From Deltaproteobacteria bacterium (GTDB taxonomy: Bacteria; Desulfobacterota; DSM-4660; Desulfatiglandales; Desulfatiglandaceae): 37,989 bases of DNA. Shown here piece by piece: positions 7,720-35,384 of this stretch. The stretch is from NCBI GenBank assembly GCA_016927455.1, contig JAFGMQ010000002.1, positions 1 through 37,989 on the forward strand. Direction: 5' to 3'. The position numbers and the translations under genes were made by a program. The notes beneath the pieces are model-generated. The model saw only the letters and a program-made list of their open reading frames with translations. It was not told the DNA's origin and ran no database searches. Each line of letters starts with the position of its first letter. Position 1 is the first letter of the stretch.

Positions 7720-9822
7720 ATGGCAGTAGCAACTCAATCTGATAACTCTATACGGATACCATTTATCACCAATAACAGTGAGATACTTGTTGCTTTCGGG
7801 GTTGTATGTGTCCTGATACTGATGGTAATTCCTTTGCCCACCATGCTTTTGGATCTTCTTTTATCTTTGAATATAACACTTGCCCTGATAATACTTCTGG
7901 CGTCCATGTATATTTTAAAGCCTTTGGATTTATCATCATTTCCTTCTATTCTTCTGCTTGCAACTTTATTCCGTCTCTCCCTGAATATTGCTTCCACGAG
8001 GATAATCCTGCTGCATGGTAATGAAGGAACACTGGCTGCGGGAAAAGTAATAAAGGCATTCGGAAGCTTTGTAGTCGGCGGCAACTATGTAGTCGGCGGT
8101 ATAGTTTTTCTGATACTTGTCATTATTAATATTATCGTCATTACAAAGGGATCAGGAAGGATAGGCGAGGTGGCTGCCAGATTCACTCTGGACGCCATGC
8201 CTGGTAAGCAAATGAGTATTGATGCCGATCTGAACTCAGGATTAATTGATGACGTTGAGGCAAAGGAGAGAAGAAAGGTTATTTCCCGGGAGGCTGATTT
8301 TTATGGCGCCATGGATGGTGCAAGCAAATTTGTAAGGGGAGACGCCATAGCAGGAGTTATAATAACTCTTATAAATATCGTTGGTGGCCTCGCAATCGGA
8401 GTTCTCCAAAAGGGAATGACCATATTTGATGCTGCCCAGAATTATTCCCTTCTAACCGTTGGAGACGGACTCGTTACCCAGATTCCGGCGCTTATTATTT
8501 CGACCTCGGCCGGCATTGTGGTAAGCAGGGCAGGATCTGAAGCAAGCCTGGGAAGAGATATGACTTCACAGCTTCTGGTTCAGCCACGTGCTATAGCAAC
8601 TGCTGCGGTAGTACTTTTTGCATTAGGGCTGGTCCCCGGTCTTCCAACTGTTCCTTTTGCCGTGCTGTCCATAATGGCTGGAGCGGTTGCATACGTTGTC
8701 TCCAGTGCAAGAAAGGCAGGACAGGAGGAATCAGAGGCAACTGAGGAAGCAAAAACCAAGACCAAGGCTGCTGAAAGGTTTGATGTGCTTCCCCCTCTCG
8801 ACAGCCTGTCGCTGGAAGTTGGTTACGGGCTTATTCCGTTAGTGGATATGGAGCAAAACGGAGAACTCCTGGATCGAATAAGGTCAATAAGACGACAAAT
8901 AGCCCAGGAGGTAGGAATAATAGTTTCTCCCATTCATATACAGGATAATATGCAGTTAAAGCCGGCTGAATATTTAATAATGCTTAAGGGAAATGAAATA
9001 GGCAGAGGTGAACTTATGATGAATCACTATCTGGCTATGGACCCCGGGACTGCAAAAGAGAAAATTACCGGCATGCCGACAAAAGAACCAACCTATGGAC
9101 TTCCGGCAGTATGGATCAGGGAAGAGGAAAAGGAAAAAGCACTGTCTAAAGGCTATACTGTGGTTGATTTGCCAACAGTCCTGATAACTCATCTCTCAGA
9201 TATCATCAGAAAACACGCCCATGAATTGCTGGGGAGACAGGAAGTTCAGAAGCTGCTTGACATCATAAAAGAATCTCATCCCAAGGTAGTTGAAGAACTG
9301 ATCCCAAGCCTGATGTCCCTTGGCGGAGTAGGCAAGGTGCTGCAGAACCTATTGAGAGAACAGGTTCCTATCCGTGATCTGCTTACTATCCTGGAAACTC
9401 TTGCAGACTGGGCTCCCGTTACAAAAGACACTGACCTGTTAACGGAATATGTACGTCAATCTCTGGGGAGAACTATTACCAAAATGTATCAGACTCAACA
9501 GGGAGGCATACCTGTAATCACTCTTGATCAAGGGGCTGAAAAGACCTTTTTGGAGTCTATTCAACAGACGGATAAAGGGAGCTTTGTTTCAATGGATCCG
9601 GATTATGCCCAGAAGCTTATAAAATCACTTATGAAAAACCTGGAGGAATTCACAAAACTCAATTATCAACCTATTGTCTTGTGTTCGCCCCAGATAAGGC
9701 CTCATTTCAAGAATTTTACTGATCGTTTCATCCCTAACCTGGTAGTACTTTCGTATAACGAAATTTTAAATACTGTGAAAATACAATCTTTAGGAACTAT
9801 AGGAATCTCAAATGCACATTAA
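7720..9822 (+). CDS. flhA: Flagellar export gate protein FlhA
   Basis: 700 aa (E. coli 692). The N-terminal half has about eight membrane segments, with the FHIPEP-family signature around residues 145-185 (GSGRIGEVAARFTLDAMPGK, then MSIDADLNSG). After an acidic/Lys linker at about 335-350 comes the cytoplasmic domain that docks chaperone-substrate complexes and forms a nonameric ring (for example PTYGLPAVWI and RKHAHELLGRQEV). The start is ATG at 7720. It overlaps flhF by 11 nt. Confidence 0.97.
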   Translation: MAVATQSDNSIRIPFITNNSEILVAFGVVCVLILMVIPLPTMLLDLLLSLNITLALIILLASMYILKPLDLSSFPSILLLATLFRLSLNIASTRIILLHGNEGTLAAGKVIKAFGSFVVGGNYVVGGIVFLILVIINIIVITKGSGRIGEVAARFTLDAMPGKQMSIDADLNSGLIDDVEAKERRKVISREADFYGAMDGASKFVRGDAIAGVIITLINIVGGLAIGVLQKGMTIFDAAQNYSLLTVGDGLVTQIPALIISTSAGIVVSRAGSEASLGRDMTSQLLVQPRAIATAAVVLFALGLVPGLPTVPFAVLSIMAGAVAYVVSSARKAGQEESEATEEAKTKTKAAERFDVLPPLDSLSLEVGYGLIPLVDMEQNGELLDRIRSIRRQIAQEVGIIVSPIHIQDNMQLKPAEYLIMLKGNEIGRGELMMNHYLAMDPGTAKEKITGMPTKEPTYGLPAVWIREEEKEKALSKGYTVVDLPTVLITHLSDIIRKHAHELLGRQEVQKLLDIIKESHPKVVEELIPSLMSLGGVGKVLQNLLREQVPIRDLLTILETLADWAPVTKDTDLLTEYVRQSLGRTITKMYQTQQGGIPVITLDQGAEKTFLESIQQTDKGSFVSMDPDYAQKLIKSLMKNLEEFTKLNYQPIVLCSPQIRPHFKNFTDRFIPNLVVLSYNEILNTVKIQSLGTIGISNAH

Positions 9823-12216: not shown

Positions 12217-12975
12217 ATGGAATTGGCAGAAAGACATATATCAGGCATGGAAAAAGAAGATCGACTTTTAAGGAAGCAGCTTATTCTTGAACACCTTCCC
12301 TATGTGAAATCCATAGTCTACAGGATTGCAGTACATCTTCCTTCCAGCGTTGAGATAGATGATCTTCTAAGCTCCGGTGTTATTGGCCTTATTCAAGCCG
12401 TGGAACGCTATGACCCGACCAGAGATAATAAATTTACAACCTATGCCACGTTCAGGATCAGGGGTGCAGTTCTAAGTGAGTTGCGTTCTCGAGACTTTCT
12501 TTCTCGATCAGACAGGAGAAAAATCCGTGCATTGGAAAAGGCCTATGCAAAACTTGAAAACAGGCTTGGAAGAGAGGCAAAAGACGAAGAAATTGCACAG
12601 GAAATGGAATTAAGCCTTGAGGAGTTGTTCAACATTAAGAAGACGTCTGCCATATCTATTATCAGCCTTGGAGAGATGGGATATTCAAAAGAAGAGGACA
12701 GCGGGAGGCTCATGAGCTACCTGAATGATACTGAGCCTGAAGACGGGCTTGCATTAACAAGGATAAAGGAGTTGCAAACCTCTCTTTCAAGGGCGATTGA
12801 TGAGTTGCCTGAAAGGGAGAAGATTGTAGTTTCCTTATATTACTGGGATGAATTGACTATGAAGGAGATTGGCAAGGTTTTGGACATCACTGAATCAAGG
12901 ATATGTCAGATCCATTCCAGTGCAGTTATTCGTCTTAGAAAAAAACTTGGAAGGGAGGGCCTGCTGGATGATTAG
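12217..12975 (+). CDS. fliA: RNA polymerase sigma-28 factor FliA
   Basis: 252 aa sigma-70-family factor for late flagellar and chemotaxis genes. Region 2 includes LPSSVEIDDLLSSGVIGLIQAVERYD and KFTTYATFRIRGAVLSELR; region 3 begins at SRSDRRKIRALEKAY; region 4 ends with ELTMKEIGKVLDITESRICQ and a helix-turn-helix. ATG at 12217 follows GGGAAA; a second in-frame ATG is at 12247 without a better ribosome site. Its anti-sigma factor FlgM is encoded at 19374. Confidence 0.96.
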   Translation: MELAERHISGMEKEDRLLRKQLILEHLPYVKSIVYRIAVHLPSSVEIDDLLSSGVIGLIQAVERYDPTRDNKFTTYATFRIRGAVLSELRSRDFLSRSDRRKIRALEKAYAKLENRLGREAKDEEIAQEMELSLEELFNIKKTSAISIISLGEMGYSKEEDSGRLMSYLNDTEPEDGLALTRIKELQTSLSRAIDELPEREKIVVSLYYWDELTMKEIGKVLDITESRICQIHSSAVIRLRKKLGREGLLDD

Positions 12976-19233: not shown

Positions 19234-19260
19234 TTAAGTTCAGGAGTTTTCTGCCGATAT
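19234..19260 (+). promoter_or_regulatory. Sigma-28 (FliA) promoter for flgM
   Basis: TTAAGTTC at 19234-19241, eleven bases, then GCCGATAT at 19253-19260. Consensus is TAAAGTTT-N11-GCCGATAA, so the spacing is exact with three mismatches. The transcript would start about 100 nt before flgM. A FliA-driven flgM is the expected negative feedback. Confidence 0.8.
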
Positions 19261-19373: not shown

Positions 19374-19682
19374 ATGAAGATTGTAGGAGAAAATCCTTTC
19401 GTAAAATTAGATTCTTATGTAAAGAATATAAAGCAGAAGAAGGATGTTGATGAACCAAAAAACAGTACTTCTCGAGAGGACTCCACGGATGATAATGTTG
19501 TTCTGTCACCCAGGGCAAAAGAGATTCAGGATGCAAAAAAAATACTGATCTCGTCTCAGGATATTAGAGAAGAGAAGATAGCAGAGATCCGGAAGCAGAT
19601 TGAAAACGGGACCTATCAAATTAATGGAGACAAGATAGCGGTCAAGATGATAAAGGAATCAATTTTAAATGAGCTGCTTTGA
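19374..19682 (+). CDS. flgM: Anti-sigma-28 factor FlgM
   Basis: 102 aa, small and polar. The C-terminal half matches FlgM: R-x-E-K-I-A-E-I-R-K-Q-I-E-N-G-T-Y-Q-I, then IAVKMIKESILNELL. FlgM binds FliA until the hook is complete and is then exported by the flagellar gate. A strong AGGAGGGG precedes the ATG, and a sigma-28 promoter lies upstream. flgN follows after 113 nt. Confidence 0.9.
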   Translation: MKIVGENPFVKLDSYVKNIKQKKDVDEPKNSTSREDSTDDNVVLSPRAKEIQDAKKILISSQDIREEKIAEIRKQIENGTYQINGDKIAVKMIKESILNELL

Positions 19683-19795: not shown

Positions 19796-20296
19796 ATGGA
19801 TATACTGCTTGACAGGTTTCTTGATTTGATGGAGGAGGCAACAATTGCCTACAAAGATCTGCTTTATGTACTTCAAAAGGAAAGGAAAGCAATCGTTAAC
19901 TCAAATTTTCAAGAATCCAATGAGGCTGGAAAGGAAAAGGAAAACATATTGCTTAAGATTCGCATAGTGGAAGAACAAAGGCAGAACATCCAGGAAAAAC
20001 TTGCTGATCACCTGGGATATCTTCCCCAGGATCTTACAATGACAAAACTCTCAGAATCAGTTCAGGATCCTTATTCAAAGCGATTAAAGGCCTGCTGTTC
20101 AAGCCTTTCAGCATTGCTTCAGAGTATTCTGGAAATTAACAGCGGCAACAAGGCCCTGATAATGCATTGCCTTGAATTGGTAACCGGGTCATTGACTCTA
20201 TTGAGCAATTTAATGAGTACAAATCCTGTATACTATAGAAGTGGAGCTGTTCATCTATCCGAAAATAATGGCAGGGTAATGTCCGGACGGATTTAA
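19796..20296 (+). CDS. flgN: Flagellar export chaperone FlgN
   Basis: 166 aa, mostly helical, with the FlgN-type pattern of a long N-terminal helix (LYVLQKERKAIVNSNFQ), an E-K-E-x-I-L-L-K-I motif and a heptad-rich C-terminus. FlgN is the export chaperone for the hook-filament junction proteins FlgK and FlgL, both encoded later in the window. The downstream hairpin at 20414-20447 may end this transcript. Confidence 0.82.
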   Translation: MDILLDRFLDLMEEATIAYKDLLYVLQKERKAIVNSNFQESNEAGKEKENILLKIRIVEEQRQNIQEKLADHLGYLPQDLTMTKLSESVQDPYSKRLKACCSSLSALLQSILEINSGNKALIMHCLELVTGSLTLLSNLMSTNPVYYRSGAVHLSENNGRVMSGRI

Positions 20297-20413
20297 GGGA
20301 AGTAATTACTTGATTTAAACAGAAGAAATCAGTTAATAATTCTATATAAAACAAATTCTGATGCTGGAGCTCTAAGAATAAGCGATATGATATTACCCCA
20401 CGCATCATTCGGA

Positions 20414-20447
20414 TGGAGAGGCACATCTCTCCCTTCTTCGTTTTTAT
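20414..20447 (+). terminator. Probable Rho-independent terminator after flgN
   Basis: TGGAGAG, a six-base loop, CTCTCCC, then a T-rich tract (TTCTTCGTTTTT). The stem is seven pairs including the outer A/T-flank region. It lies about 118 nt past flgN and before the cheA leader. The T tract is interrupted, so efficiency is uncertain. Confidence 0.55.
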
Positions 20448-20505
20448 ATTTCACGAAGCACATAAGACGATATATTGAAAACCTTTATATCTTATTTCAA
20501 AATTT

Positions 20506-20533
20506 TTATCGGCATAGTATAAAAAAAACTTTA
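20506..20533 (-). promoter_or_regulatory. Sigma-28-like promoter pointing antisense, toward flgN
   Basis: Read on the minus strand: TAAAGTTT (20533-20526), twelve bases, then GCCGATAA (20513-20506). Both boxes match the FliA consensus perfectly; the spacer is 12 rather than 11. No minus-strand gene follows that I can support, so the product would be an RNA running opposite the flgN 3' end. It lies in the AT-rich 284-nt gap between flgN and cheA. Confidence 0.5.
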
Positions 20534-20580: not shown

Positions 20581-23262
20581 ATGAAAAGGATGGATAAATC
20601 GGTTATAGAGACACTCAAGAAGATAGGTGAAGATATAGAAACGCTCAGCCTGGGCGATTATAATGCCTGGAATGCAGTTTACATTGATTTCGAAAACGCA
20701 GTAAGTGGCTTTCAGGATGATTTGCCTGAATTATTCAAGCTCATCAGCCTTTGCCTCAAGGGGCTCAGGTCTATTTCTGAAGGCTCTGTCTCAAATCTGC
20801 TGGACATTATTGAATCCCTGAATAATTCTCTGCATGCTTTGGAACAGTATATCCTCAATAGCCCTAAGAGTGTAGAACTCATTAATGAGGCCGTTCAGGC
20901 ACTGGAAAATGCAGTGGCCGTTGACTCAAGGGAAGATGCTTTGATATCGGTACCTGAAAACGGTCTTCAGGATGATGTCTCCAGTGAAGTTCCTTTAAAT
21001 TCCCTCAATGATGCTGCCATTTTTCTTATCCAAATCGAACCCGACGATAATCAGAGCCTTGTCCGTTTAAGGGACGCCCTCAATAAACTTGAATCTGACA
21101 AATCATATCCTGATATATCAAGAAAAAATATTAGCAAGGCAATAGTTATAATTGAGGGGATTATGGACGGAGGTATTTCAGATCCGGCTTCAGCTTTCAA
21201 GGAAATCGGCAGGCACCTGGAGGAAGCGGTTTATTTGAAGGATGAAGAGGATAGGATTCCTGAAGAATCCGGCGGTGATTTTACCTCTGACAAAGATGAG
21301 AGCGAGACAAATGAAGAAAAGGAGGTTGCAGAGGCAAAGGGTATTTTAACACCTTACGAAGATGAAGAAAAAGTGATTAGTGAGGTATCCGGTGATCTTT
21401 CATCTGATGTCGGGGCTGAAACAGGTGATCTGTCAGATGATTACATGTCTGAGGATGCTGATCCTGATTTACTTGCCGAGTTTATTAATGAGGGAAGAGA
21501 TTTGATTGCAAATGCTGAGGAGGCATTGCTGACCCTCGAAAATGAACCGGAAGACATGGAAGCTGTTGCAACCGTTTTTCGAGCCTTTCACACAATAAAG
21601 GGCACTTCCGCCTTTCTTAATATTACACTTGTATCCGAAATGGGTCATCATGCGGAGTCGCTTCTCAGTCGTGTCCGGGATCGGGAAATTCGTTACAGCG
21701 GAGGATATGCCGACCTCACCCTGCGAGCCCTTGATATGATAAAAGAACTGGTCCAGTCTGTTGAAAAGGCATTGGCAGGGAATGTTTTTTCTAAACCCTC
21801 CGGATATGATGAATTAATGGAAATTCTGGCAAATCCGGAGAAGGCGGGCATATCGGACGAATATGAGGACAGCTCGGATACGGATTTGAAGGTCGGAGAG
21901 ATACTTATTGGAAAGGGTAAGACGCAGAAGGAAAAAGTTGAGGAAACACTTTCCAGACATAGCGGCAGGCCGATAGGGGTAGAGCTTGTAAAGTCAGATG
22001 CCGTATCTGTTAATGATGTTGCCAAGGCGCTTCGTACTCAGAAACAGATAAAGGTCGGAAAACAGGTGGTTGAATCATCCGTAAGGGTAGGGACAGAACG
22101 TCTGGATCGATTGATTGATATGGTTGGAGAACTGGTTGTTGCTCATTCCATGCTTGCGCAGGATGATATTGTCGTAAGCGGGAGCCACCATGATCTTATT
22201 AAAAAAGTATCTCATACAACCAAGATCGTTCGCCAACTCCAGGATCTTGCAATGTCCATGCGTATGATTCCGCTCAAGTCAACTTTTCAGAAGATGGCAC
22301 GTCTTGTGAGAGACCTTTCACGTAAGGCCGGAAAGAATATCAGTTTTGTTACTGAAGGCGAAGACACCGAAATCGACAGAAACATGGTTGATGTAATAAA
22401 TGATCCCCTGGTCCATATAGTCCGTAATGCAGTTGATCATGGTATTGAGCTTCCTGATGTCAGAGAAAAAGCCGGTAAGCCGAAATCAGGAACGGTGAAA
22501 CTGTCAGCATATCATTCAGCGGGAAACGTGGTGGTTGAAATAGCTGATGATGGCAAGGGGCTTGACCGCGATGCTATTCTTGCCAAGGCAAGAGAGAGGG
22601 GTCTCCTGAGTGAAGGAACAATGATAAGTGACAGGGAAGCGTTTAACCTTATTTTTGAGCCGGGCTTTTCAACAGCTTCTGCAGTCACGGAGATATCCGG
22701 GCGTGGAGTGGGAATGGATGTGGTAAGAAGAAATATAGAGGCGCTCAGGGGCCAGGTTGAAATAGTTTCCGAGCATGGCAAGGGAAGCATTTTCAAGATG
22801 AGGCTTCCTCTTACACTTGCAATTATCGACGGCATGGTAATACGTGTGGGACAGGAAAATTATGTTATTCCTACAGTCTCTATCACCAGGTCAATCAAAC
22901 CCGATATCAAAGATTTTTCCACAGTGCTCAATAAGGGTGAGGTGCTTTCCATTCAGGGGAAACTCATTCCGCTCTTCAGGCTGGCAAGATTATTTGACAT
23001 AAAAGATTTTGAGCAGGATCCGAATAAGATGCTTGTTGTTGTTATTGAGGATAATGGAAGGCAGGCTGGCATGGTCATTGACGAGCTGATTGGGAGACAG
23101 CAGGTTGTTATTAAAACTCTTGGTGAGACCATGCAGAATATACTGGGTATTTCCGGAGGAGCCATTATGCCAAACGGTCAGGTAGGTCTGATCCTTGACG
23201 TTGGCGGACTGGTCAAGTTAGCTAATGGTGAAGGCATTGAAGGCTTAAGGGAAGAAGATTGA
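20581..23262 (+). CDS. cheA: Chemotaxis histidine kinase CheA with long N-terminal extension
   Basis: 893 aa (E. coli 654). An extra helical and acidic region of about 300 residues precedes the Hpt domain (about 300-405), whose phosphorylated His is H337 in FRAFHTIKGTSAFL. Then come a linker, the dimerisation helices (VGTERLDRLIDMVGELVVAH), the ATPase domain with N box NAVDHGIELPDVREKAGKP, G boxes DDGKGLD and GRGVGMDVV, and a C-terminal CheW-like domain. No distinct P2 CheY-binding domain is obvious. I chose ATG 20581, with AAGGGA six bases upstream, over GTG 20563 which lacks a ribosome site. It is followed by cheR. Confidence 0.95.
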   Translation: MKRMDKSVIETLKKIGEDIETLSLGDYNAWNAVYIDFENAVSGFQDDLPELFKLISLCLKGLRSISEGSVSNLLDIIESLNNSLHALEQYILNSPKSVELINEAVQALENAVAVDSREDALISVPENGLQDDVSSEVPLNSLNDAAIFLIQIEPDDNQSLVRLRDALNKLESDKSYPDISRKNISKAIVIIEGIMDGGISDPASAFKEIGRHLEEAVYLKDEEDRIPEESGGDFTSDKDESETNEEKEVAEAKGILTPYEDEEKVISEVSGDLSSDVGAETGDLSDDYMSEDADPDLLAEFINEGRDLIANAEEALLTLENEPEDMEAVATVFRAFHTIKGTSAFLNITLVSEMGHHAESLLSRVRDREIRYSGGYADLTLRALDMIKELVQSVEKALAGNVFSKPSGYDELMEILANPEKAGISDEYEDSSDTDLKVGEILIGKGKTQKEKVEETLSRHSGRPIGVELVKSDAVSVNDVAKALRTQKQIKVGKQVVESSVRVGTERLDRLIDMVGELVVAHSMLAQDDIVVSGSHHDLIKKVSHTTKIVRQLQDLAMSMRMIPLKSTFQKMARLVRDLSRKAGKNISFVTEGEDTEIDRNMVDVINDPLVHIVRNAVDHGIELPDVREKAGKPKSGTVKLSAYHSAGNVVVEIADDGKGLDRDAILAKARERGLLSEGTMISDREAFNLIFEPGFSTASAVTEISGRGVGMDVVRRNIEALRGQVEIVSEHGKGSIFKMRLPLTLAIIDGMVIRVGQENYVIPTVSITRSIKPDIKDFSTVLNKGEVLSIQGKLIPLFRLARLFDIKDFEQDPNKMLVVVIEDNGRQAGMVIDELIGRQQVVIKTLGETMQNILGISGGAIMPNGQVGLILDVGGLVKLANGEGIEGLREED

Positions 23263-23288
23263 AGAGCAACAACACAATCAGGAATATA

Positions 23289-24095
23289 ATGGCAGTTGAA
23301 TTGAGCGATAAACAGTTCCTGAAAATAAGCCAGATAATCTATGAACTATGCGGGATTAATCTGAAAGAAGGCAAACAGGCTCTTGTCAGGTCAAGATTAA
23401 TGAAGCGCCTGAGAGTACTGAAAATGGGGAGCTTTAAGGAGTATATAAAATTTATTGAAAGTGACAATGGCAGACAGGAAATAGGCTTTATGGTTGATGT
23501 TATGACCACGAATAAAACAAGCTTTTTCCGTGAGCCGGCTCATTTCAGGTATTTAGAGGAAAATGTATTGCCGAACCTGAATAAAAAACGAATCAGGTTC
23601 TGGACGGCTGCGTGTTCTTCAGGTGAAGAGCCCTTTTCTCTTGCCATGGTCGTGAGGGAAAATATCCAGAATATCAATTCCAGGGATATCAGGATACTGG
23701 CAACCGATATTTCCAGAAGGATGCTTGAGAGGGCCCGTAATGCTGTTTATGAAGAGGAAAAGGTATTTAGCATTTCTCCTCCGCTCATAAAAAAATATTT
23801 TGTCAAAATCGGAAAAGAATCACCTTCTGTCTATCAGTTGAAAGATTCTGTCAAGTCACTGGTTCATCTGGCATGGCTTAATCTGATGGATAAGTGGCCA
23901 ATGAAAGGCCCTTTTGACCTGATTTTTTGTAGAAATGTTATGATCTATTTTGACAGAACAACTCAACAGAATCTGATTAACCGTTTTTGGGATTATCTTG
24001 AGCCGGGAGGCTATCTTTTTGTTGGTCATTCCGAGGGGCTGTCATCTATCTCTCATAAATTCGAATATGTAAGGCCTGCTATTTACAGAAAATGA
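23289..24095 (+). CDS. cheR: Chemoreceptor methyltransferase CheR
   Basis: 268 aa SAM-dependent methyltransferase for receptor glutamates. The N-terminal helical domain includes LVRSRLMKRLRVLKM; the catalytic domain includes TTNKTSFFREPAHF, WTAACSSGEEPFSLAM (SAM-binding), DLIFCRNVMIYFD and LEPGGYLFVGHSEGL. ATG 23289 has AGGAA upstream and fits the family N-terminus; an in-frame TTG at 23259 overlapping the cheA stop is an alternative giving 278 aa. cheD follows after 28 nt. Confidence 0.94.
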   Translation: MAVELSDKQFLKISQIIYELCGINLKEGKQALVRSRLMKRLRVLKMGSFKEYIKFIESDNGRQEIGFMVDVMTTNKTSFFREPAHFRYLEENVLPNLNKKRIRFWTAACSSGEEPFSLAMVVRENIQNINSRDIRILATDISRRMLERARNAVYEEEKVFSISPPLIKKYFVKIGKESPSVYQLKDSVKSLVHLAWLNLMDKWPMKGPFDLIFCRNVMIYFDRTTQQNLINRFWDYLEPGGYLFVGHSEGLSSISHKFEYVRPAIYRK

Positions 24096-24123
24096 TCATT
24101 AAGAAAGAAAATGGTTAGAACTG

Positions 24124-24597
24124 ATGAGATACGTTGTTGGAGTAGGTGACATGAAGGCTGGGCAGAAAGGGGACATTATAGTCACCCATGCCCTTGGAAG
24201 CTGCCTCGGATTAATGCTCTATGATCCAGTGATGAAAATAGGGGGCATGCTGCATGCCATGTTGCCGTTATCAAAGATAAATATGGAAAAGGCTCAAGCC
24301 AATCCGTTCATGTTCGTTGACACAGGCGTGCCGGAATTGTTCAAGGCAATTTATAATATGGGTGGACTGAAGGGAAGGCTTATTGTCAAAGCTGCAGGCT
24401 GTGGTTCTCCTTTGGGAAATAACGAGATGTTTAAGATCGGGGAAAGAAATCATACGGTGCTGAAGAAGCTTCTCTGGAAAAACAGCATACTCCTCAAATC
24501 TGAGGACGTTGCAGGATCAAAAAGCCGAACGGTTCACTTTAATATTTCTACCGGCCAGGTAATAATAAGCAGCAACGGAGTGGAGACTGAGCTTTGA
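24124..24597 (+). CDS. cheD: Chemoreceptor glutamine deamidase CheD (first copy)
   Basis: 157 aa. The catalytic Cys and His stand at C27 (THALGSC) and H44 (GGMLHAMLP), the same positions as in Thermotoga CheD, with the late motif EDVAGSKSRTVHFNISTGQV. CheD deamidates receptor Gln residues and can bind CheC/CheX-type phosphatases. It overlaps the HDOD gene by 4 nt. A second, more divergent CheD is encoded at 30664. Confidence 0.93.
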   Translation: MRYVVGVGDMKAGQKGDIIVTHALGSCLGLMLYDPVMKIGGMLHAMLPLSKINMEKAQANPFMFVDTGVPELFKAIYNMGGLKGRLIVKAAGCGSPLGNNEMFKIGERNHTVLKKLLWKNSILLKSEDVAGSKSRTVHFNISTGQVIISSNGVETEL

Positions 24598-25445
24598 AAA
24601 ATAAGAGCAGAGTAGATATATTGTCAAAAGTGGATTCTTTTCCAAGTATGCCCGGGGCAGCGGTAAAGATGCTTTCACTCCTTGATAATCCTGACACTAC
24701 CGTCACTCAGATAGAAGGCATACTTCGGTATGAGCCAGGGCTTACCGCAAATATTCTGAAACTGACGAACTCTGCATATTTTGGTCTCCCGAGCAAAGTG
24801 GGTTCAGTAAAACATGCCGTAGTTCTGCTGGGTTGGAGGCGCCTGGTGCAACTCGTTATGGCTTCATGTGTCAGTGCTATAATGAACAAGTCAGTTCCCG
24901 GCTATGATTTGCCTCCAGGGGGTCTCTGGAGGCATTCCATCGCAGTTTCGGTTGCTTCAGAGGGGCTTATGAAGGAGCTTGGACTCCCATCTGATGACGA
25001 GGTTTTTACAGCTGCGCTTCTTCACGACCTGGGGAAACTTGTTCTTGGCAGTTCAATAAAAGATGATATCAGGGCTATTGAAATTACTGCCTCAGAGGGA
25101 GTACCCTTTGAAGTGGCCGAATATATGGTGCTTGGAACTGACCATGCTGAGGTTGGGGCAAAGATATTGGAGTCATGGTCTTTTCCTCCAAAGATAGTCA
25201 ACGCCGTTCGCTGGCATCATGAACCTGACTCTGCTGAGGAAAGCGATGTAATGCTTGATATTGTTCATGTTGCAAATGTGCTGTGCCTCATGATGGGGAT
25301 TGGTATTGGAAGAGAAGGCCTGAGATATGAACCCTCGCGTTTGGCAACAAAAAGGCTGGGACTTCATACTGCGCACCTTGAAATTGTGGCAAGCAGGACG
25401 ATGCAATGGGTAAATGAACTGACTGAAGTGTTTGGAGCAAAATAG
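24594..25445 (+). CDS. HDOD-domain signalling protein
   Basis: 283 aa. The HDOD domain fills most of the protein: SFPSMPGAAVKMLSLLDNP, a helix with PGLTANILKLTNSAYFGLPS, and the HD-like AALLHDLGKLVLG near residues 140-155. HDOD proteins are usually non-catalytic and sit in regulatory and chemotaxis operons; the ligand is unknown. The start is TTG 24594, coupled to the cheD stop (TTGA) with GGAG upstream. Confidence 0.85.
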   Translation: MKNKSRVDILSKVDSFPSMPGAAVKMLSLLDNPDTTVTQIEGILRYEPGLTANILKLTNSAYFGLPSKVGSVKHAVVLLGWRRLVQLVMASCVSAIMNKSVPGYDLPPGGLWRHSIAVSVASEGLMKELGLPSDDEVFTAALLHDLGKLVLGSSIKDDIRAIEITASEGVPFEVAEYMVLGTDHAEVGAKILESWSFPPKIVNAVRWHHEPDSAEESDVMLDIVHVANVLCLMMGIGIGREGLRYEPSRLATKRLGLHTAHLEIVASRTMQWVNELTEVFGAK

Positions 25446-25523
25446 TGTAAACAGGGGGGAAACCCGGGAATCGCACTTATTTATTCTTTAGCCGGTTCCA
25501 ATTAAAATGAAGAGGTTATTCGA

Positions 25524-25902
25524 ATGGCACTTAACGTCCTCATAGTAGACGACAGTGGTGTAATGAGAGCCATGATAAAGAAGACAATGCTCATGAGCGG
25601 CCTGCCGCTCGGCGAAGTCTACCAGGCCGGTAACGGTAAGGATGGCCTTGAGATTCTGAACCAGAACTGGATTGACCTTGTTGTGGTTGATATTAACATG
25701 CCTGTAATGAATGGTGAGGAGATGCTCAGCCAAATGCGGGAAAATCCAGGTACAAAAGATATCCCTGTTGTTGTCATATCTACCGAAGGAAGTCAGACAC
25801 GCATTGAACGTTTGATAAAAAAGGGCGCCAGCTTCATTCAAAAGCCTTTTTCTCCCGAGCTCATCAGGGATATCGTAAAGGAAATAACTGGAATAGGGGG
25901 CG

Positions 25903-25925
<23 letters not shown>
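25524..25925 (+). CDS. cheY: Chemotaxis response regulator CheY-like
   Basis: 133 aa single receiver domain. The acid pocket is D9/D10, the phosphorylation site is D56 (VVVDINMP), followed by the Thr in VVISTEGS and the Lys in FIQKPFSP. Phosphorylated by CheA, it would bind FliM to change rotation. It overlaps the CheX-like gene by 23 nt, suggesting the two are made together and that the neighbour removes its phosphate. Confidence 0.92.
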
Positions 25926-27524
<1,599 letters not shown>

Positions 27525-35357: not shown

Positions 35358-35384
35358 CTATCGGCATTTTATCTTAATTCATTA
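35358..35384 (-). promoter_or_regulatory. Sigma-28 promoter for cheW - mcp - HDOD
   Basis: On the minus strand: TAATGAAT (35384-35377), exactly eleven bases, then GCCGATAG (35365-35358). The -10 box has one mismatch to GCCGATAA and the -35 box keeps TAA and G. Transcription would start near 35350 and give a leader of about 280 nt that includes the palindrome cluster. Confidence 0.75.

Follow-up and report, generated by a model that had tools for sequence, protein, structure and literature searches.

In the stretch of 37,989 nucleotides of deltaproteobacterial DNA analysed here (the window), a perfect sigma-28 (FliA) promoter sequence lies between the export chaperone gene flgN and the chemotaxis gene cheA, and it points at no gene. 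With a probability of roughly 0.55, we regard it as a genuine, lineage-specific orphan promoter, which would yield an untranslated and probably unstable RNA with little or no effect on flgN. The observations that speak for this reading are the rarity of the motif, its association with flagellar genes, the presence of genes for FliA and FlgM, and the lack of a minus-strand gene or terminator downstream. FliA RNA polymerase would initiate near position 20499 on the minus strand, within the flgN-cheA gap, and the untranslated RNA would head for flgN. This RNA, which has no defined intrinsic end, would probably be terminated by Rho or where its polymerase collides with that transcribing flgMN; it would then be quickly degraded, and by itself would hardly affect flgN, if at all. 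The features concerned are collected in Table 1.

Table 1. Coordinates of the boxes and neighbouring features in the window, and of the structured RNA loci from another family of the phylum
Feature	Coordinates	Strand	Basis or remark
Sigma-28 (FliA) promoter boxes	20506..20533	-	-35 box TAAAGTTT at 20526-20533, spacer at 20514-20525, -10 box GCCGATAA at 20506-20513
Predicted RNA start and first ~200 bases before flgN	20297..20499	-	Start placed ~7 bases past the -10 box; non-coding by the tests applied
44-codon ORF, judged not to be a gene	20329..20463	-	No homologue, coding signal or usable Shine-Dalgarno
96-codon ORF	20136..20426	-	Shine-Dalgarno-like GGGAG; codon score 74th of 77 antisense ORFs
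Terminator-like hairpin, plausible end of the flgM-flgN transcript	20415..20432	+	Terminator scan
flgN, export chaperone	19796..20296	+	Pfam PF05130 FlgN, 1.4e-17
flgM, anti-sigma-28	19374..19682	+	Pfam PF04316 and NCBIfam TIGR03824, above cut-off
fliA, sigma factor expected to read the boxes	12217..12975	+	NCBIfam TIGR02479 FliA_WhiG, 257 bits, above cut-off
cheA	20581..23262	+	Pfam CheW, HATPase_c, H-kinase_dim, Hpt; AAGGGA before the best-start ATG at 20581
Weaker sigma-28-like site 5' of flgM	19234..19260	+	TTAAGTTC-N11-GCCGATAT; same position class as the flgM promoters of relatives
Weaker sigma-28-like site 5' of the cheW-receptor pair	35358..35384	-	Motif match
~135-base RNA loci (L164-L170, L172-L187)	~1501-1640 in most loci		Covariance, with sigma-28-like boxes upstream

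Read along the minus strand from 20533 to 20506, the site consists of TAAAGTTT, the 12-base spacer TTTTTATACTAT and GCCGATAA, which bears out at 16/16 bases the initial annotation's description of two perfect FliA consensus boxes separated by 12 bases. The boxes occupy part of the 284-base flgN-cheA gap, 48-75 bases 5' of the cheA ATG, and are oriented toward flgN and away from cheA. The gap is AT-rich and T-rich (GC 31 percent), a composition that favours the -35 half of the motif, yet first-order Markov resamples of the gap reached at most 13/16 matches in 4000 trials, and resampled strands of the size of the window reached at most 14/16. This is the sole perfect match within the window, with none in 100 shuffles, and it is also the only one in its own 2.55-Mb assembly, where a pattern search allowing up to 3 mismatches returned a runner-up at the same spacing with 2 mismatches. 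The textbook E. coli sigma-28 spacer is 11 bases long; among the order's other perfect boxes, spacers of 11 bases (6/12) and of 12 bases (6/12) are equally frequent, and the longer spacer is found in flgM promoters (L013-L017; L043) and in a flagellin promoter (L048) of relatives. A 12-base spacer is normal in these relatives and is no defect.

Across 85 genomes from the order, the exact 16-base motif with a spacer of 11-12 bases has 13 occurrences and the reversed pattern a single one; across 395 genomes from the phylum, the counts are 72 and none, the two samples having some genomes in common. Perfect copies are therefore almost never accidental. All ten of the perfect boxes that were profiled precede genes for FlgM (three), flagellin (three), MotA, CheR, a rod protein or an HDOD protein, an HDOD-like gene being present in the window's own che cluster as well, and most of the remaining contexts, judged by eye, have a close same-strand ORF downstream. 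From the phylum-wide counts and the flagellar and chemotaxis genes behind the perfect boxes, we infer that the boxes at 20506-20533 are very probably a sigma-28 promoter, predicted to be active in the cell. The weaker sites before flgM and the cheW-receptor pair fit the expected late regulon, and elsewhere in the genome a flaG-like gene, named by eye, is preceded by TCAAGTTT-N11-GCCGATAA. Matches in the relatives' loci L009 and L014-L017, which at first look were candidate antisense sites, were rejected as such: they are sense promoters of flgM, because flgN lies on the minus strand there.

As the initial annotation had proposed, no minus-strand gene follows the boxes; only ORFs of 44 and 96 codons are present, without homologues or coding signal. 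The 44-codon ORF has no Pfam or NCBIfam match, its best homologue among the compared loci has an E-value of 0.96, and no Shine-Dalgarno sequence was found at a usable distance from it. Its codon score of 0.08 is below that of all 30 genes used (0.12-0.29), and is reached by 18 of the 77 antisense ORFs. For the 96-codon ORF, there was likewise no Pfam or NCBIfam match and no convincing homologue among the compared loci. Intrinsic terminators on the minus strand were detected neither by a relaxed scan from 20498 to 19370 (~1.1 kb) nor by a standard scan of a wider region. The first 203 bases of the predicted RNA fold slightly better than shuffles (z-score -1.37), with two small hairpins within the first 90 bases, and the modelled fold as a whole is unremarkable. 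An Rfam scan of the entire window returned only a tRNA, with no match at the gathering threshold in the region of the predicted RNA.

In this family, flgM-flgN is followed either directly by flgK, as in some relatives, or by a che cluster, as in others and in the window, where cheA, cheR, cheD, HDOD, cheY, cheX and cheB (20581-27524) lie between flgN and flgK. The box is absent from the flgN-cheA gap of five relatives from other genera (G007, G019, G032, G033 and G075), in which the best minus-strand matches, 8-12/16, are at background level. FlgN identity to these relatives is only 23-57 percent, so that the absence speaks of non-conservation at the level of the family, not among close relatives; a FlgN alignment scan of the genome collection yielded nine loci, none of them from the same genus. 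When 60 relatives were searched for DNA homology to the gap, only chance-length matches of ~25 bases appeared outside its own genome, and the plasmid collection gave no match. The corresponding gap in G019 (L024, ~8990-9350) contains a long self-complementary sequence which, by eye, resembles a small mobile element.

Promoters of a comparable kind are known from E. coli, in which 30 of 52 FliA sites are intragenic, most of them without detectable RNA (PMC4183435). Like the boxes described here, the orphan and intragenic FliA promoters of E. coli (Fitzgerald et al. 2014, PMC4183435) are not positioned for a protein gene; an antisense case is known (hypD), and the RNA is mostly undetectable or unstable. 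The window site differs from them in that it is intergenic, lies in a flagellar cluster, and combines a perfect consensus with a 12-base spacer. This difference counts against the orphan-promoter reading, in that the inert E. coli sites are intragenic and many of them are poorer matches, whereas the present site is intergenic and optimal; in addition, that a perfect consensus has survived in a single lineage is a hint of selection for some role. Elsewhere in the phylum, discrete terminated RNAs follow gene-less perfect boxes of two further kinds, and orphan status, therefore, need not mean uselessness.

In a different family of the phylum, an RNA of ~135 bases lies downstream of two gene-less boxes (L116, L117). 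It folds (z about -4) into three strong hairpins, with C-rich loops, CUCCC or CCUCC, that are anti-Shine-Dalgarno-like, and its last hairpin is terminator-like. When the 395 sampled genomes were searched with a model of this RNA (R1), built from seven copies with the promoter left out, 16 genomes from that family were found to have it, and two weak matches lay outside the family. At the expected place, 16/16 genomes have a sigma-28-like box, made up of TAAAGTYY (with one deviating base allowed), N11-12 and NCCGANAA or a close variant of it; this looser pattern was chosen after the sequences were seen. Changes on both sides were observed in 8 of 30 pairs, the structure beats all slid controls, and the nearest Rfam family, ar14, is below its cut-off (35 vs 58.8 bits). 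The ~135-base RNA looks like a new sigma-28-dependent small RNA family. The RNA predicted in the window was rejected as a member, as it gave no match to R1 even at an E-value of 10. Within the window's own family, a gene-less perfect sigma-28 box in G002 (L049/L190, 1501-1620) is followed by ~70 bases and then by a hairpin with a T-run; in G009 (L191), the RNA portion has a homologue, 89 percent identical over 74 bases, which has an apparent sigma-70 promoter instead. One more perfect sigma-28 box, in L130 (~1501-1700), lacks a gene on its own strand over the stretch read, the opposite strand has an apparent short ORF, and the box is possibly a second antisense orphan.

These RNAs bear on the best-surviving alternative, in which the boxes in the flgN-cheA gap would drive a small regulatory RNA with targets in trans, comparable to UhpU of E. 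coli or to the sigma-28-preceded RNAs of the other family. We consider this possible, if doubtful, and rate it somewhat likelier than antisense timing, given that other perfect boxes of the phylum which lack a gene front discrete RNAs, structured and terminated. The two small hairpins at the start of the predicted RNA agree with such a role, but neither has a terminator after it, the fold z-score (~-1.3) is weak, and the RNA lacks both a homologue in the 60 relatives and a match to R1. Known non-coding RNAs under FliA include UhpU, MotR, FliX and FlgO in E. coli (PMC10578931) and CJnc170 (FlmR) in Campylobacter jejuni (PMC11187230). The former are derived from UTRs (PMC10578931), whereas the window RNA would be transcribed opposite to the operon strand and has no visible end; CJnc170 is a discrete 47-nt RNA (PMC11187230), and no comparable discrete structure is apparent in the window.

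The initial annotation had suggested instead that a FliA-driven RNA would run opposite the end of flgN and could provide timing feedback. Of this, the orientation is supported, as the promoter sequence faces the 3' end of flgN; antisense control of flgN is not supported, and the start would lie about 200 bases outside the gene. With a predicted start at ~20499 and the flgN stop at 20296, some 200 bases of intergenic DNA would be transcribed first, so that antisense pairing with flgN needs a read-through of at least 203 bases; the RNA would also overlap the tail of the flgMN transcript, with its hairpin at 20415-20432, before reaching flgN. Together with the absence of the box from the gaps of the five relatives and the lack of a discrete RNA end, this distance argues against antisense control of flgN, and the timing-feedback idea is unlikely. 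In its general form, a sigma-28 RNA reading through this distance would pair or collide with the flgN (perhaps also the flgM) transcript and damp this transcript at a late stage of assembly, in a delayed negative loop. To its credit are the orientation and strength of the promoter, the lack of an intrinsic terminator before flgN, and the sigma-28-like site at flgM (19234-19260), by which both strands could be under FliA control; with such a promoter also at flgMN, an antisense RNA would make a tidy delayed brake. Against it, besides the distant start and the unconserved box, stand the two detected intragenic FliA RNAs of E. coli, for which no regulation of the mRNA that they overlap was apparent (PMC4183435). 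We find this loop improbable, and quite improbable the more specific proposal that a FliA-driven antisense RNA crosses the flgMN tail into flgN, and possibly flgM, acting as a delayed brake or as a loop that lowers FlgM. An excludon RNA also serves as the mRNA of a divergent gene, whereas no minus-strand gene follows the boxes here. What the present case would share with the excludon-type antisense transcription at flagellar genes, reviewed in PMC7154746, is a transcript antisense to a flagellar operon.

It is decidedly unlikely that the boxes are left over from a promoter whose former target, a flagellar or chemotaxis gene on the minus strand, disappeared when the che cluster came to lie between flgN and flgK. 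The cluster does interrupt the flgN-flgK junction in the window and in some relatives but not in others, and the gap is variable and AT-rich; however, there is no trace of a pseudogene on the minus strand, a perfect consensus would be unexpected in an old remnant, and the relatives that have the che cluster have no box in the gap. Less likely still is an action on cheA, in which bound FliA polymerase, 48-75 bases upstream, would compete with or stimulate a plus-strand cheA promoter: the box is in the cheA upstream region, and a weak sigma-70-like pair at 20475-20503 adjoins it within the likely footprint, but chance alone would account for a site of this quality (1.6 expected, 1 found). A fortuitous match, without activity of FliA at the site in the cell, has the T-rich composition of the gap in its favour and is extremely improbable in view of the reversed controls across the phylum and of the gap resamples.

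E. coli commonly has flagellar promoters without a gene, the purpose of which is disputed, and a perfect-consensus case within the flagellar cluster of a Desulfobacteraceae-like bacterium offers a clean setting for asking if they are put to use. If antisense control were to operate after all, the RNA would act on late flagellar export as an inbuilt brake with a delay, or as a loop that lowers FlgM. The orphan box further drew attention to a class of sigma-28 boxes, likewise gene-less and from the same phylum, which are followed by a discrete conserved RNA.
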